64,000 bases of DNA from [Synechococcus] sp. NIES-970 (GTDB lineage Bacteria; Cyanobacteriota; Cyanobacteriia; Cyanobacteriales; MRBY01), in contig AP017959.1 of assembly GCA_002356215.1 (NCBI GenBank), positions 1,116,001 through 1,180,000 on the forward strand, given 5' to 3'. This document shows, one piece after another, positions 5,628-28,743 of the stretch. The notes under the pieces were generated by a model, which was not told the origin of the DNA, ran no database searches, and saw nothing but the letters and a program-made list of their open reading frames with translations. Position 1 is the stretch's first letter, and the number at the start of each line of letters is the position of its first letter. Position numbers and translations under genes: made by a program.

Positions 5628-6626
5628 CTAGAAATGTTGGAAAGTTTCGCTGCGACTTAAAGGGATTTTTCGACCAGTGCCATCGGCGATCGCCACCGTT
5701 TGATCAACGGTAATCTGGCCAATAATTGCCCCCTGCCCCGGCAACATTTGTAAGAGGCTTTGGGCGGCAAGCGTTGGTAGACAGAGCACCAACTGAAAAT
5801 CTTCACCGCCGTATAGAGCCCACTGGCGGGAAATTTCTGGGGGCTGGTAACGACGGAGGGCAGGGGAAATGGGGAGTTGATCAGCTTGGAGCACGGCGCC
5901 AACCCCGCTGCACTGACAAATTTGGAGCACCGCATCGGCTAGCCCGTCGCTACTGTCCATGCCGGCGAGGGGCCAAGTTAAAGCAAGGGCCGTTAAATAG
6001 TTCAACGCATCGAGCCTGGGTAAGGGCATTTGGTGGGCATCGATGAGCGCTTGGCGATCGCCGGCGGCTAATCCCTGGGCGGCGGGCGTATCGGGTTCGA
6101 GGAGTAACTCTAAGCCCGCCCGGGAATCCCCATGGTGGCCCGTCACCACGATGGCATCCCCTGGTCTGGCAGCAGTCCGTTGAATGATGCGGTTCGGTGA
6201 AACAGTGCCCAGGGCCGTAATCGCAACAGTTTTCACGGGCGATCGCGTTAAATCTCCACCAACTAAGGGTGTATGGTAACGGCTTAAACAGGCGGCCATT
6301 CCTTGGTAGAGCTGGTCTAGCCAAGGCATCGGGGTTTCTGGGGGCAAAGACAGCCCGACGGTGATGCCGATTGGGGTTGCGCCCATGGCGGCGAGGTCTG
6401 ATAAATTTGCGGCCACCGCCCGCCAGCCTACTTTTTCCGCAGGCATTGTGCGATCGCTAAAATGCACCCCATCCACGAGAATATCCGTGGTGACGACCAA
6501 AGATTCCTGAGGTGGAAGCGCCAAAACTGCACCATCATCGCCAATGATTTCTGCTGGGCAGAACTGCTGGAGCCGCCGGAGAATTTCCGCTTCACCAAAA
6601 TCCTTGAGATATTTCACATCAGCCAT
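5628..6626 (-). CDS. thiL: Thiamine-monophosphate kinase
   Basis: ThiL phosphorylates thiamine monophosphate to the active cofactor thiamine diphosphate in the cytoplasm, using ATP. The 332-residue protein has family landmarks in order: IGDDGAVL near residue 30, VVTTDILVDGVHF near 45-57, the ANLSDLAAMGA stretch near 73-83, VGGDLTRSP near 122, and GMDSSDGLADA near 218-228, which supply Mg and phosphate ligands. Length is normal. Start ATG at 6626. Its pathway partners thiE and thiS lie far away at the other end of the window, so the thiamine genes are not clustered here. Confidence 0.95.
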   Translation of the reverse strand: MADVKYLKDFGEAEILRRLQQFCPAEIIGDDGAVLALPPQESLVVTTDILVDGVHFSDRTMPAEKVGWRAVAANLSDLAAMGATPIGITVGLSLPPETPMPWLDQLYQGMAACLSRYHTPLVGGDLTRSPVKTVAITALGTVSPNRIIQRTAARPGDAIVVTGHHGDSRAGLELLLEPDTPAAQGLAAGDRQALIDAHQMPLPRLDALNYLTALALTWPLAGMDSSDGLADAVLQICQCSGVGAVLQADQLPISPALRRYQPPEISRQWALYGGEDFQLVLCLPTLAAQSLLQMLPGQGAIIGQITVDQTVAIADGTGRKIPLSRSETFQHF

Positions 6627-6678
6627 GGTCGCCTATTGAGAGGGTTACGGAGGATCAAGATAGGGGCTTCAAAAACAT

Positions 6679-6731
6679 AGTAATTTACTAAATCCATTAC
6701 TTTTTTGTAAAATCAAAGGAAAAGTAATGGA
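6679..6731. promoter_or_regulatory. Palindrome plus 12-bp inverted repeat over a start codon
   Basis: TAGTAA-T-TTACTA (6679-6691) is a perfect palindrome. It is followed by TCCATTACTTTT (6693-6704) and its exact inverse AAAAGTAATGGA (6720-6731), with a 15-base spacer holding the AAAGGA ribosome site. The ATG at 6727 is inside the right arm. The core ATTACT/AGTAAT is repeated in these elements. It could be an operator for a dimeric repressor, an mRNA hairpin masking the start, or both. Confidence 0.6.
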
Positions 6732-7332
6732 CTATGACCCCATGGGTACACAAAATAAGGCGGTCACCGCCTATCTCCCCGAAGAAATTGAAGCATGTCT
6801 GGCCGCTTTCTGTTTAGAAAATGGTCTTTCGCGCCAAGGGAAAAAAAGTGGCAAGGAAAAACCCGCCCTCGGCACAGGCATTGTGGAGGTGCTGCGACTC
6901 TTTTTTAGCACTGACTTGAATAGCAGCTTTCCAGCACCTGTTTTAGACAAGGATGAACTCCAGGCGATCGTTTCCGAGACTCTACCCGACCATGTACCGA
7001 CTCAGGCCTGGGTTCAATCAGAAATTCAACAGGCGATCGCCCAACTCAAGTCCGAAATGGCGACACCTGCGACCCTAAACAGTAACCCGGAGGCGTCCTC
7101 CGTTGCGGTCGAATTATCTGAATCCGGTAACGAAAAAAAAAAGAAGCTGATCCTCAAGCAAGCTGATCTCGCCCGTCGCCTCCGGTCTAATGCCTCCACC
7201 CTCAGCCGCCACCACCAGAAAGGCGGCGAACATTTTGCCCAGTGGTCCAAGGCCAAAGACCCGGAGGCGATCGCCTGGCAATATCGCGGCATTGAAGACA
7301 GCAGCAAAATGTTTGAAATGATTGACGAGTAA
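6727..7332 (+). CDS. Putative DNA-binding protein of unknown role
   Basis: This 201-residue protein is not one I can name. The N-terminus (KAVTAYLPEEIEACLAAFCL, to about residue 60) resembles a ribbon-helix-helix fold. A variable middle follows (about 75-135), with a run of five lysines near 137-141. The C-terminal part (LKQADLARRLRSNASTLSRH, about 144-163) looks like a helix-turn-helix with a basic recognition helix. Together with the inverted repeats over its own start codon this suggests an autoregulated DNA-binding protein, which is an inference. It is divergent from thiL and convergent with the GH38 gene. ATG 6727 is supported by AAAGGA at 6715-6720. Confidence 0.7.
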   Translation: MDYDPMGTQNKAVTAYLPEEIEACLAAFCLENGLSRQGKKSGKEKPALGTGIVEVLRLFFSTDLNSSFPAPVLDKDELQAIVSETLPDHVPTQAWVQSEIQQAIAQLKSEMATPATLNSNPEASSVAVELSESGNEKKKKLILKQADLARRLRSNASTLSRHHQKGGEHFAQWSKAKDPEAIAWQYRGIEDSSKMFEMIDE

Positions 7333-18861: not shown

Positions 18862-18911
18862 AGTCGCTTCAAAATTTTCCGCCTATAATTGGAACCAATT
18901 TTGAAGCGACT
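18862..18911. repeat. 15-bp perfect inverted repeat
   Basis: AGTCGCTTCAAAATT (18862-18876) and AATTTTGAAGCGACT (18897-18911) are exact inverse copies with a 20-base loop. They sit 13 bases after the stop of the TxlA-like gene and about 50 bases before the next ATG. There is no T-tract, so a simple intrinsic terminator is not a good fit. An mRNA-stability hairpin or a protein-binding operator for the next gene are alternatives. Confidence 0.6.
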
Positions 18912-26214: not shown

Positions 26215-28743
26215 CTAAAAGTCAGTGAGGTCACCACTCTGCTCCCGTTCAATGAACGCTTGCACCTTGTGGCGGTAGTCCCGCAGGGATTCTTCTACCC
26301 ACTCGCGGCTATCGCTATTGGCATAAATGTGAACCAGGGGCTCCCCGGCATCGGGTAGCACCAAAACCCAATTATCGGAGACTGGATCGATAATCTTCAC
26401 GCCGTCAATGAGCTCCAGGCGATCGCTAGCGTGGATTTCTACCAGATGGCGCATTAAGGAACCCTTGATCCGCCATGGACAACGAATGGTGTAAGACTTA
26501 TGGAAAACCATGGGCAATTCGGCCCGGATTTGTCCCAGCGATCGCTCTTGAATCGTGAGCATTTCGATCAATTTGGCGATCGTAAACATCGCATCAAAGC
26601 CCGGGTGCAATTCTGGAAAAATAAAGCCCATATCACCGCTCCCCCCCAGCACCACATTGGGATTATTACGGCAGGCCTCCATCAGGGCAGTGGGATTTGC
26701 CTTCGTGCGGATCACGTGACCATCGTGGCGGCGGGCAATTTGCTCGATGGCACTAGAGGCGTAAACTGGCACGACCACCGAGCCCCGGGGCCTGGCCATC
26801 AGTAAGATGCTGACCAGCAGGGCCGTTAGACGCTCCCCCTGGATTGACAAACCAGACTCATCTACCAAGGTGAGCTGTTCACCATTCGCCGCCACCTGTA
26901 CCCCCATGCTCGCTCCCAGTGCTTCCACCACGTGGCCCAGTTGCAAGAGGAGCGATTCTTTCTCCGGGCCGACCGGGGAGCTTTGTTTTAAGCTGGCATT
27001 TAACACCACGGCATCGCAGCCAAATTTATTCAATAAAGTTGGGAGAACAGCCCCCGATACGGCATAGGCATAGTCAATTACCACCTTTGAGCCGCTGTGG
27101 GTGAGGGCGCCAACATTGAGATGATCTTCAAAGCGTTGGCTATATTGTTCAATGATCTGGGCCGGATAGGACATTTCGCCGATTTCGGCGATCGCCACCC
27201 GGCGGAGGTCATCTTTAAAATAAGCTCCTTCAATTTTTTTTTCTTTGGCCTTAGAAATATTGATCCCCTGGCTATCAAGGAATTCAATCAGGAGGTGATC
27301 CGAGCGCTCTGGGTGGAGGCGCACATGGATACTTCCTTCTACGTCAAAAATGCTGGTCATGGTGCGGGCAATGGGAATAGCCGTTGCCTGGAGATTTTGC
27401 ACACAGACCCCCGCTGACATTAAACCCGCAATCAAAGAGCGGCTCACCATCCGCGACACACTGCGCTGGTCGCGGGAGACAATCACCATGGAACCTGTTT
27501 TAAGAGTCGAGCCATAGGCGGCCCCAAGCTTCACAGCGAATTCTGGGGTAATGTCAATATTCGCCAGGCCCGAAACCCCCCGCTGACCGAAGAGATTCCT
27601 TTGGGCGGTGCTGCCCCAAATAAGGTTGATATTAACGATCGCCCCGGCTTCAATACGTTTATTGGGCCAAATCCTTACTCCTGTGCCAATGTGGGCTTCT
27701 TCTTCGACGGTAGAAAGCGCACCCACCACCGCCCCTTCAAGGATATGGGCGCGGCGATCAATGCGGCTGCCTCGGACGACGGTACAGGCCCGGAGTTGGA
27801 CTTCTTCCCCCAGGGTGACCCCATTCCAGAGGATCGGCCGCTTCAGGTCCGAGTCCGCCCCCACGGTGACGTTATCACCAATCACTGTGCCTGGTTCGAT
27901 CTGAACCCTGGCCCCAATGCGACAGTTGTCACCAATCATCGCGGGGGGATGAATTTGGGCACTGTCATCAATAAAGGTATTGTGACCAATCCAAATGCCT
28001 GGCGATCGCTCTTCATAGGAATATTGCACCTGGACTTTGCGGGCAAGGGCATCATACTGAGCTTTGCGATAGGCATCCAGGTGACCGACATCACACCAAT
28101 AGCCCTCGGCCACATAGCCATACATCAATTCGCCCCGGTCAAGCAGGAGCGGAAAAAGATCCTTAGAAAAATCCGACTCCTCCTGGGCAGGTAGATACTG
28201 TAAAACTTCCGGCTCCAGGATGTATGTCCCTGTGTTGACCGTATCAGAAAAAATTTCGCTGGTGGAGGGTTTTTCTAAAAAACGGCAAATGCGCCCCCCT
28301 TCGTCGGTGATCACAACGCCAAATTCCACGGGGTTGGGAACACGGGTTAAAACCAGGGTTGCCTTTGATCCTTTTTCTTTGTGGAAGGCGATCGCCGCCG
28401 AGAGGTCAAAATCTGTGACACTATCACCACTGATCACCACAAAGGTTTCAGTCAGTAGTTCTTCGATATTTTTCACACAGCCAGCCGTACCGAGGGGATG
28501 GTCTTCTTCGACGGCATAGTGCATCTTGACCCCAAAATCACGACCATCTTGAAAATAATCCCGCATCACATCGGGCACATAATGGAGGGTTGCGATCACT
28601 TCTGTGATGTTATGGCGCTTGAGCAGATTGAGGATATGTTCGGCAATGGGGCGGTTTAACACGGGCACCATCGGCTTCGGTAAATCGCAGGTCAGGGGCC
28701 GCAACCTCGTCCCCGATCCCCCTGCCATCAAGACTGCACGCAT
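26215..28743 (-). CDS. Nucleotidyltransferase fused to a phosphomannomutase-like domain
   Basis: An 842-residue fusion. Residues 1-230 are a sugar-phosphate nucleotidyltransferase (MRAVLMAGGSGTRLRPLT signature, LPKPMVPV, VISGDSVTDFD, GYWCDVGHLDAY). About 250-370 are left-handed beta-helix hexapeptide repeats. About 385-835 follow the phosphoglucomutase/phosphomannomutase fold. Such proteins are usually annotated mannose-1-phosphate guanylyltransferase, supplying GDP-mannose or a related sugar nucleotide for glycans. Odd: the mutase signatures are degraded. The active-serine loop (normally TASHNP) reads HVRLHPE near 473-479, the metal loop (DGDADR) reads AANGEQ, and the phosphate loop (SGTEP) reads DAGEP. 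So the last domain is probably not a working mutase. The substrate is uncertain. Confidence 0.85.
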   Translation of the reverse strand: MRAVLMAGGSGTRLRPLTCDLPKPMVPVLNRPIAEHILNLLKRHNITEVIATLHYVPDVMRDYFQDGRDFGVKMHYAVEEDHPLGTAGCVKNIEELLTETFVVISGDSVTDFDLSAAIAFHKEKGSKATLVLTRVPNPVEFGVVITDEGGRICRFLEKPSTSEIFSDTVNTGTYILEPEVLQYLPAQEESDFSKDLFPLLLDRGELMYGYVAEGYWCDVGHLDAYRKAQYDALARKVQVQYSYEERSPGIWIGHNTFIDDSAQIHPPAMIGDNCRIGARVQIEPGTVIGDNVTVGADSDLKRPILWNGVTLGEEVQLRACTVVRGSRIDRRAHILEGAVVGALSTVEEEAHIGTGVRIWPNKRIEAGAIVNINLIWGSTAQRNLFGQRGVSGLANIDITPEFAVKLGAAYGSTLKTGSMVIVSRDQRSVSRMVSRSLIAGLMSAGVCVQNLQATAIPIARTMTSIFDVEGSIHVRLHPERSDHLLIEFLDSQGINISKAKEKKIEGAYFKDDLRRVAIAEIGEMSYPAQIIEQYSQRFEDHLNVGALTHSGSKVVIDYAYAVSGAVLPTLLNKFGCDAVVLNASLKQSSPVGPEKESLLLQLGHVVEALGASMGVQVAANGEQLTLVDESGLSIQGERLTALLVSILLMARPRGSVVVPVYASSAIEQIARRHDGHVIRTKANPTALMEACRNNPNVVLGGSGDMGFIFPELHPGFDAMFTIAKLIEMLTIQERSLGQIRAELPMVFHKSYTIRCPWRIKGSLMRHLVEIHASDRLELIDGVKIIDPVSDNWVLVLPDAGEPLVHIYANSDSREWVEESLRDYRHKVQAFIEREQSGDLTDF

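Follow-up and report, generated by a model that had tools for sequence, protein, structure and literature searches.

The 201-codon reading frame studied here, from [Synechococcus] sp. NIES-970, begins amid a cluster of short repeats and encodes a protein with parts resembling two kinds of DNA-binding domain. The initial annotation had described the repeats as a 12-bp inverted repeat holding the start codon, next to a 13-bp palindrome, and had proposed autorepression at the DNA or RNA level. What are these repeats, and does the encoded protein act on them? We compared the locus with the rest of the window (the 64,000-nucleotide stretch analysed, contig AP017959.1, positions 1,116,001 to 1,180,000), with its orthologues and with more distant relatives. 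Judged by these comparisons, the repeats are copies of one motif, very probably the site that the encoded protein binds to regulate its own gene.

Three copies of an 11-bp motif

The inverted repeat is present as described, TCCATTACTTTT (6693-6704) pairing with AAAAGTAATGGA (6720-6731) at 12 of 12 positions across a 15-nt loop, and the ATG at 6727 does lie in its right arm. Perfect 12-bp inverted repeats with loops of 3-40 nt occur at two places in the 64 kb (6693-6731 and 18862-18911), compared with a mean of 0.075 and a maximum of 2 in 40 dinucleotide shuffles of the window. At the second place, which lies between two ORFs, the inverted repeat is perfect over 15 bp (AGTCGCTTCAAAATT / AATTTTGAAGCGACT, 20-nt loop) and has no T run 3' of it. 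The palindrome was also found, but it spans 6678-6690 and thus starts one base to the left of its annotated position; alone it is unremarkable, as palindromes of the 6+1+6 form number 19 in the window and 18.55 on average in 20 shuffles. The ribosome site assigned to the loop, AAAGGA (6715-6720), lies within it except for its last base.

The ATTACT/AGTAAT unit, which had been noted to recur, proved to belong to three copies of an 11-bp motif, AGT-N5-ACT, within window positions 6678-6734 (sites A, B and C; Table 1), of which B is degenerate in one half. A and B are spaced 12 bp apart and B and C 32 bp, and site C is located just 5' of the conserved reading frame. Three 11-bp sites are a more fitting description of the pattern than a hairpin with a palindrome beside it. 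The AGT-N5-ACT plan was first drawn from the window and its orthologues; the later tests use other sequences.

Table 1. Features of the locus, in window coordinates
Feature	Position	Strand	Description
thiL (thiamine-phosphate kinase)	5628..6626	-	divergent neighbour
Site A	6678..6690 (core AGT-N5-ACT 6679-6689)	n/a	TAGTAATTTACTA, core AGTAATTTACT; palindrome; right half is the predicted -35
Predicted -35	6684..6689	+	TTTACT (TTGACT in L002 and L003); overlaps site A; consensus match only
Site B	6691..6701	+	AATCCATTACT, left half degenerate; left arm of inverted repeat
12-bp inverted repeat	6693..6731	n/a	sites B and C facing each other
Predicted -10	6708..6713	+	TAAAAT (TAGAAT in L005, TATAAT in L006); in inverted-repeat loop
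Site C	6723..6733	-	AGTAATGGACT, other strand AGTCCATTACT; right arm of inverted repeat, includes ATG 6727
Upstream ATG	6727..6729	+	start in the initial annotation; inside site C
Whole reading frame	6727..7332	+	201 aa; no Pfam or NCBIfam family
Alternative start ATG	6742..6744	+	aligns with starts of relatives outside the genus (mostly MAT.../MAV...)
N-terminal RHH-like domain	6742..6930	+	by sequence: strand, helix, long loop, helix
C-terminal HTH-like domain	7141..7311	+	common to many cyanobacterial proteins

In its own genome the strict form of the motif, AGTMNNTTACT, is not enriched, with 23 matches (two places being counted on both strands) against 39 for the reversed control, and the same holds for the 12-mer with one mismatch allowed (24 vs 31). 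No place in the genome other than this locus has two strict sites within 200 bp, which fits a local, autoregulatory role. A regulon reading was considered and rejected, given a strict motif that is not enriched in the genome and is clustered nowhere except here. The third-best motif match of the window, at 27071-27083 (TAGTCAATTACCA), is a lone site, probably due to chance, within an ORF of 842 aa on the opposite strand whose product by eye resembles a sugar-nucleotide transferase.

The sites are conserved with the gene in the genus

The gene was found in all six genus genomes searched (L001 to L006); two of the relatives at this locus are named, Picosynechococcus sp. PCC 7117 and a Limnothrix MAG, and two of the records recur in our sets under second labels (L003 = L031, L006 = L032). 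In the Limnothrix MAG orthologue (L006/L032) the reading frame shifts within the interdomain linker, reflecting either a sequencing error or a broken gene. In the six upstream regions AGT-N5-ACT occurs 11 times, compared with 0.20 in dinucleotide shuffles (maximum 2). Site C is identical in all orthologues, with AGTAATGGACTATG at the gene start kept in 6/6, while ACTAAATCCATTACTT of site B is kept in four (window, L002, L003 and L006). In L004 and L005 site B is lost and site A changed, leaving only C at a matrix score of at least 9; the upstream sites reaching this score number 3, 3, 3, 1, 1 and 3 from L001 to L006.

Sequence identity between the window and L002 to L006 is 90, 89, 67, 65 and 77% over the 60-bp block, and 51, 44, 42, 47 and 47% over the 49 bp before it. 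Between L002 and L003, 57/60 positions agree in the block and 39/50 before it; for L004 and L005 the counts are 44/64 and 33/55. Asp2 and Tyr3 are each written with a single codon in 6/6 orthologues, and they are among the five of 42 invariant degenerate residues in the first 58 codons that keep one codon.

The same motif precedes most relatives examined outside the genus

Searching 388 genomes drawn from the order with a profile of the N-terminal domain gave matches in 20, which belong to families f1, f2, f8, f20, f22, f25 and f31. A search of f22 (2 genomes) yielded three relatives in genome G052 (L127-L129), whereas the phylum sample (386 genomes), f8 (50 genomes) and f31 (11 genomes) gave no further relatives; among viral contigs, 13 pattern matches led to no confirmed relative. 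We analysed the 200 nt upstream of 19 family members outside the genus, leaving out L061 (a near copy of L060) and L076 (a short fragment). These regions contain 38 copies of AGT-N5-ACT, compared with 3.0 in dinucleotide shuffles (maximum 9, n=300), although the kinship among the relatives means that shuffle tests overstate independence. Of the 19 regions, 14 hold at least one exact copy, and exact copies precede family members in f1, f2, f8, f20, f22 and f31. The five without one are L057, L070 and L073 (all from G029), L058 and L072. In L059, L064, L065, L066 and L071 exact copies stand 15-22 nt upstream of the start codon. Arrangements vary, with up to eight sites per upstream region; between neighbouring sites at a score of at least 8 (77 sites, 19 regions), 25 of 61 spacings are 11-13 bp, 12 bp, the distance from A to B in the window, being the commonest. 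L087 has a second cluster of seven motif sites at about -917 to -726 from the start of the family gene, between two other ORFs.

When all 3-Nk-3 patterns (k 0-12) were counted outside the genus, AGT-N4-TAC came first (64 vs 5.6) and AGT-N5-ACT second (38 vs 3.1). Expectation maximization with 40 random starts on the 19 regions converged on AGTAnnnTACT, with the same two best places in the window (A and C). A matrix trained on 18 of the 19 regions (L069 left out; seeded with the AGT-N5-ACT pattern from the window and orthologues) ranked A, C and B as 1, 2 and 4 among 63,988 window places. Training on a single family had a similar outcome among distinct places: A was first, C second and B fourth with f8 alone (5 regions), and A first, C second and B fifth with f31 alone (8 regions). 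With the single region of f20 or f22, A was first, and C and B fell outside the top six. L127-L129, which played no part in training, all show a site at -23, with additional sites at -68 in L127 and -11 in L129.

Motif copies within the genes of relatives

The motif continues into the coding sequence of the relatives. Using the matrix trained on upstream regions only, we found 65 sites with a score of at least 9 in the first 450 nt of 20 relatives' genes (8,607 bp) and none beyond (4,923 bp), compared with 21 in 105,231 bp of 115 other ORFs from the same 18 loci. Of the 65, 45 have their AGT in frame, with 15 and 5 in the other two frames. Intragenic sites were noted in L077, L081, L084-L088, L090-L092 and L127-L129, mostly read in frame as Ser-x-(hydrophobic)-Pro. 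Across 26 family genes, words of the form Ser-x-(Leu, Val, Ile, Met or Tyr)-Pro have AGT as their Ser codon in 38/42 cases, compared with 127/452 elsewhere in these genes (Fisher 1e-15); where the third residue is Leu, its codon is TTA in 17/21 compared with 165/558 (3e-6). These P values are too small, since the genes are related to each other. The control ORFs use AGT in 7/35 words and 566/2,436 other Ser codons. L083, a near copy of L082, was left out of the codon test and of the homologue part of the control comparison. The amino acids alone do not demand the codons seen. Within the genus, L002-L005 retain the SNVP word, which the window and L006 have lost.

It is quite possible, if short of an even bet, that these relatives carry a dual-coding array, in which sites start about 200 bp upstream of the gene and run to about 450 bp within it, so that the protein's own binding sites spell out its linker. 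The plasmid array would then act as an operator as well as a centromere or copy-control site, and the window would hold a reduced chromosomal form that has lost the inner site. If the protein does bind the intragenic sites, these would clearly exemplify a gene whose own DNA-binding sites have shaped the protein it encodes, and might be a novel element for plasmid maintenance in cyanobacteria.

The encoded protein

The initial annotation had assigned the product an RHH-like and an HTH-like part, and our profile comparisons give moderate support to the former. In the N-terminal 63 residues, Tyr11 and Cys24 are invariant in 22/22 members. The best PDB match of this domain is SvtR (2kel), over the first strand and helix, with E 0.003 for the 22-sequence profile (A4) and 0.052 for a nine-sequence profile (A1). 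Aligned by hhalign to 10 RHH_1 (PF01402) hits, the domain again matched over the first strand and helix (26 columns, probability 65, E 6e-5). Pfam returned no RHH match for the window protein; RHH_5 matched one of 22 members (E 0.12) and RHH_1 none. The monomer model of the domain is of low confidence (pLDDT 61.7), with helices at 14-26 and 47-61 after a coil and no strand; Foldseek searches with it gave no match at E 0.001. The model of the whole protein was not usable (pLDDT 43.7). The N-terminal domain is thus likely, though not proven, to be RHH.

The C-terminal part looks like a helix-turn-helix domain, in keeping with the annotation: HTH_3 matches it in 5 of 11 members (best E 3.3e-5), the window member not being among them. 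A paralogue in the same genome (G000:C1:2470740-2470868) shares this domain, and several cyanobacterial proteins that have it show membrane-like N-terminal segments by eye. Nothing below E 0.1 was found in PHROGs, and the matches that four proteins had in PADLOC were weak (best E 2e-4) and scattered.

Predicted promoter and start codon

A candidate promoter overlapping the sites is readable in all six orthologues, in which TTTACT or TTGACT sits 17-22 bp before TAAAAT, TAGAAT or TATAAT. From L001 to L006 the spacers measure 18, 19, 19, 18, 17 and 22 bp, the last of which is long for a promoter. A promoter prediction tool concurs for the window promoter. A weak promoter toward thiL, overlapping sites A and B, is also predicted on the minus strand (6711-6682); if it is real, thiL could share control.

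The -10 ends 9-14 bp upstream of codon 6727 in the six orthologues, and in the window it would place the transcription start near 6719-6722. The role of ATG 6727 as start codon is doubtful: an SD-like GGA(A) precedes it by eye in L001-L004, but not in L005 and L006, and the starts of relatives fit 6742. In 22 relatives outside the genus, the codon matching 6742 is ATG in 18 and GTG or TTG in four, and 20 of them have no in-frame ATG upstream of it, the two from G029 having one three codons up. A script set these starts, taking the Met (or GTG/TTG) closest before the domain; the Met at 6742 is its counterpart in the window. Translation may therefore start at ATG 6742 rather than 6727.

Neighbouring genes and a plasmid link

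The gene and the divergent thiL are separated by 100 bp; its other neighbour is a glycosidase like mannosylglycerate hydrolase, with a match below the cut-off, and no ParA adjoins it. Among eight neighbours of relatives scanned, two exceeded curated cut-offs, namely the plasmid replication protein CyRepA1 near the gene of L088 (one ORF between) and a ParA adjoining that of L081, which has another small gene beside it that is RHH-like by eye. The other six comprise two without a match and four with matches below cut-offs. Many of the relatives' contigs are short, and others carry genes that look recombinase-like by eye. From the CyRepA1 and ParA neighbours, the short contigs and the recombinase-like genes we infer loosely that the family is mostly plasmid-borne and the genus copy a chromosomal descendant. 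The link is loose since the plasmid collection matched the window protein only through its C-terminal part (two matches) and, in tblastn searches of PLSDB plasmids with three relatives, none of these. Searches of phages with the window protein gave no match.

Discussion

We propose that sites A, B and C form an operator at which the product, putatively a dimeric RHH-type protein, represses its own gene at the DNA level, a reading to which we assign a probability of about 0.8 from sequence comparison. Computation shows the motif itself, shows that it is conserved together with the gene both within the genus and outside it, and places it over a predicted promoter that is readable in all six orthologues. 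Binding by the protein and repression as its outcome we infer, the latter by analogy with the RHH repressors TrcR (PMC10272220) and Omega (PMC9499535), as these sources describe them. The product would bind AGT-N5-ACT sites as a dimer. A dimer on A would cover the -35, one on B would lie in the promoter spacer 12 bp from A, and one on C would cover the predicted transcription start and the start codon. Together they could block RNA polymerase and so keep the level of the protein low.

Of the two levels of autorepression originally put forward, the comparison favors DNA, the sites being conserved and lying over the predicted promoter. Control at the RNA level, in which the inverted repeat would form an mRNA hairpin hiding the start codon or ribosome site, appears very improbable. 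A stable fold is predicted for 6688-6736 (-14.3 kcal/mol, z -4.9), as well as for L002 (z -4.1) and L003 (z -3.8), but it is weak in L006 (z -1.4) and absent in L004 and L005 (z about 0). Moreover, the predicted -10 lies inside the hairpin loop, which makes transcription of the left arm improbable, and among relatives outside the genus the arrangement of the motif varies (RNA folding covered the six orthologues). That the repeats arose by chance is scarcely credible. Taken alone, the 13-bp palindrome is no rarer in shuffled sequence, but the matrix and conservation tests make chance very unlikely as a source of the whole pattern.

Other roles for a genuine binding site must also be weighed. 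The motif might constitute a centromere-like or iteron array for plasmid upkeep, as the parS of RHH ParB proteins does, with the chromosomal copy a leftover or in a similar role. The CyRepA1 and ParA genes beside two relatives are in line with this, as are upstream regions with up to eight sites and sites that run on into the gene. We nevertheless regard it as unlikely, as the window has just three sites, two of them strong, and no adjoining ParA, the ParA of L081 has another small gene, RHH-like by eye, beside it, and no PLSDB plasmid was matched by the three relatives. Alternatively, the sites could be the operator of another regulator that controls this gene and its relatives, since a conserved motif alone does not name its binder and TrcR, an Anabaena RHH repressor, is reported to act near the -10 boxes of its own and other genes (PMC10272220). 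This is improbable in light of the exact copies that accompany family members across six families and extend into their coding regions, the lack of enrichment of the strict motif, or of a second close pair, in the own genome, and the matrix score of 0 for the published TrcR site. Autorepression through A, B and C is therefore the reading we favor; it offers an operator, with a defined motif, that can be put to the test for a DNA-binding protein without a Pfam or NCBIfam match.

Among the matches listed from the open-licence PMC literature, no paper on this protein family or motif was found, and comparison was made with RHH systems from other sources. SvtR of virus SIRV1 (PDB 2kel), an RHH protein that represses its own gene (PMC5569661), is the best solved-structure match of the N-terminal profile; it comes from an archaeal virus and is described there as a 6.6-kDa stand-alone RHH protein without a C-terminal HTH, whereas an HTH-like part is present here. 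The resemblance to CopG-type RHH_1 proteins (PF01402) lies in the first strand and helix, while the stretch between the two helices is longer here by eye and RHH_1 itself gives no Pfam match. Like our sites, the short repeats bound by the RHH protein Omega, the ParB of pSM19035, form runs over promoters, in its case those of its own and other genes (PMC9499535). Omega repeats are 7-bp WATCACW units and its partner is a ParA, according to the same source; here the unit is the 11-bp AGT-N5-ACT, often about 12 bp apart, with no ParA adjoining the window gene. Finally, TrcR (all0854) of Anabaena PCC 7120 is an RHH autorepressor whose conserved motif covers the -10 and transcription start of its own promoter, and a homologue is carried by the Nodularia phage vB_NpeS-2AV2 (PMC10272220). 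The A4 profile found no match in this phage (1,075 stretches of at least 40 codons, pieces overlapping), which serves as a proxy and is not TrcR itself. The TrcR motif given in that report, ATACTACACTTGTATTAC, differs from ours, and the published 18-mer reaches a best matrix score of 0. Each of the two systems combines a cyanobacterial protein, RHH in TrcR and RHH-like here, with a conserved motif in its own promoter, and for TrcR autorepression has been shown (PMC10272220).
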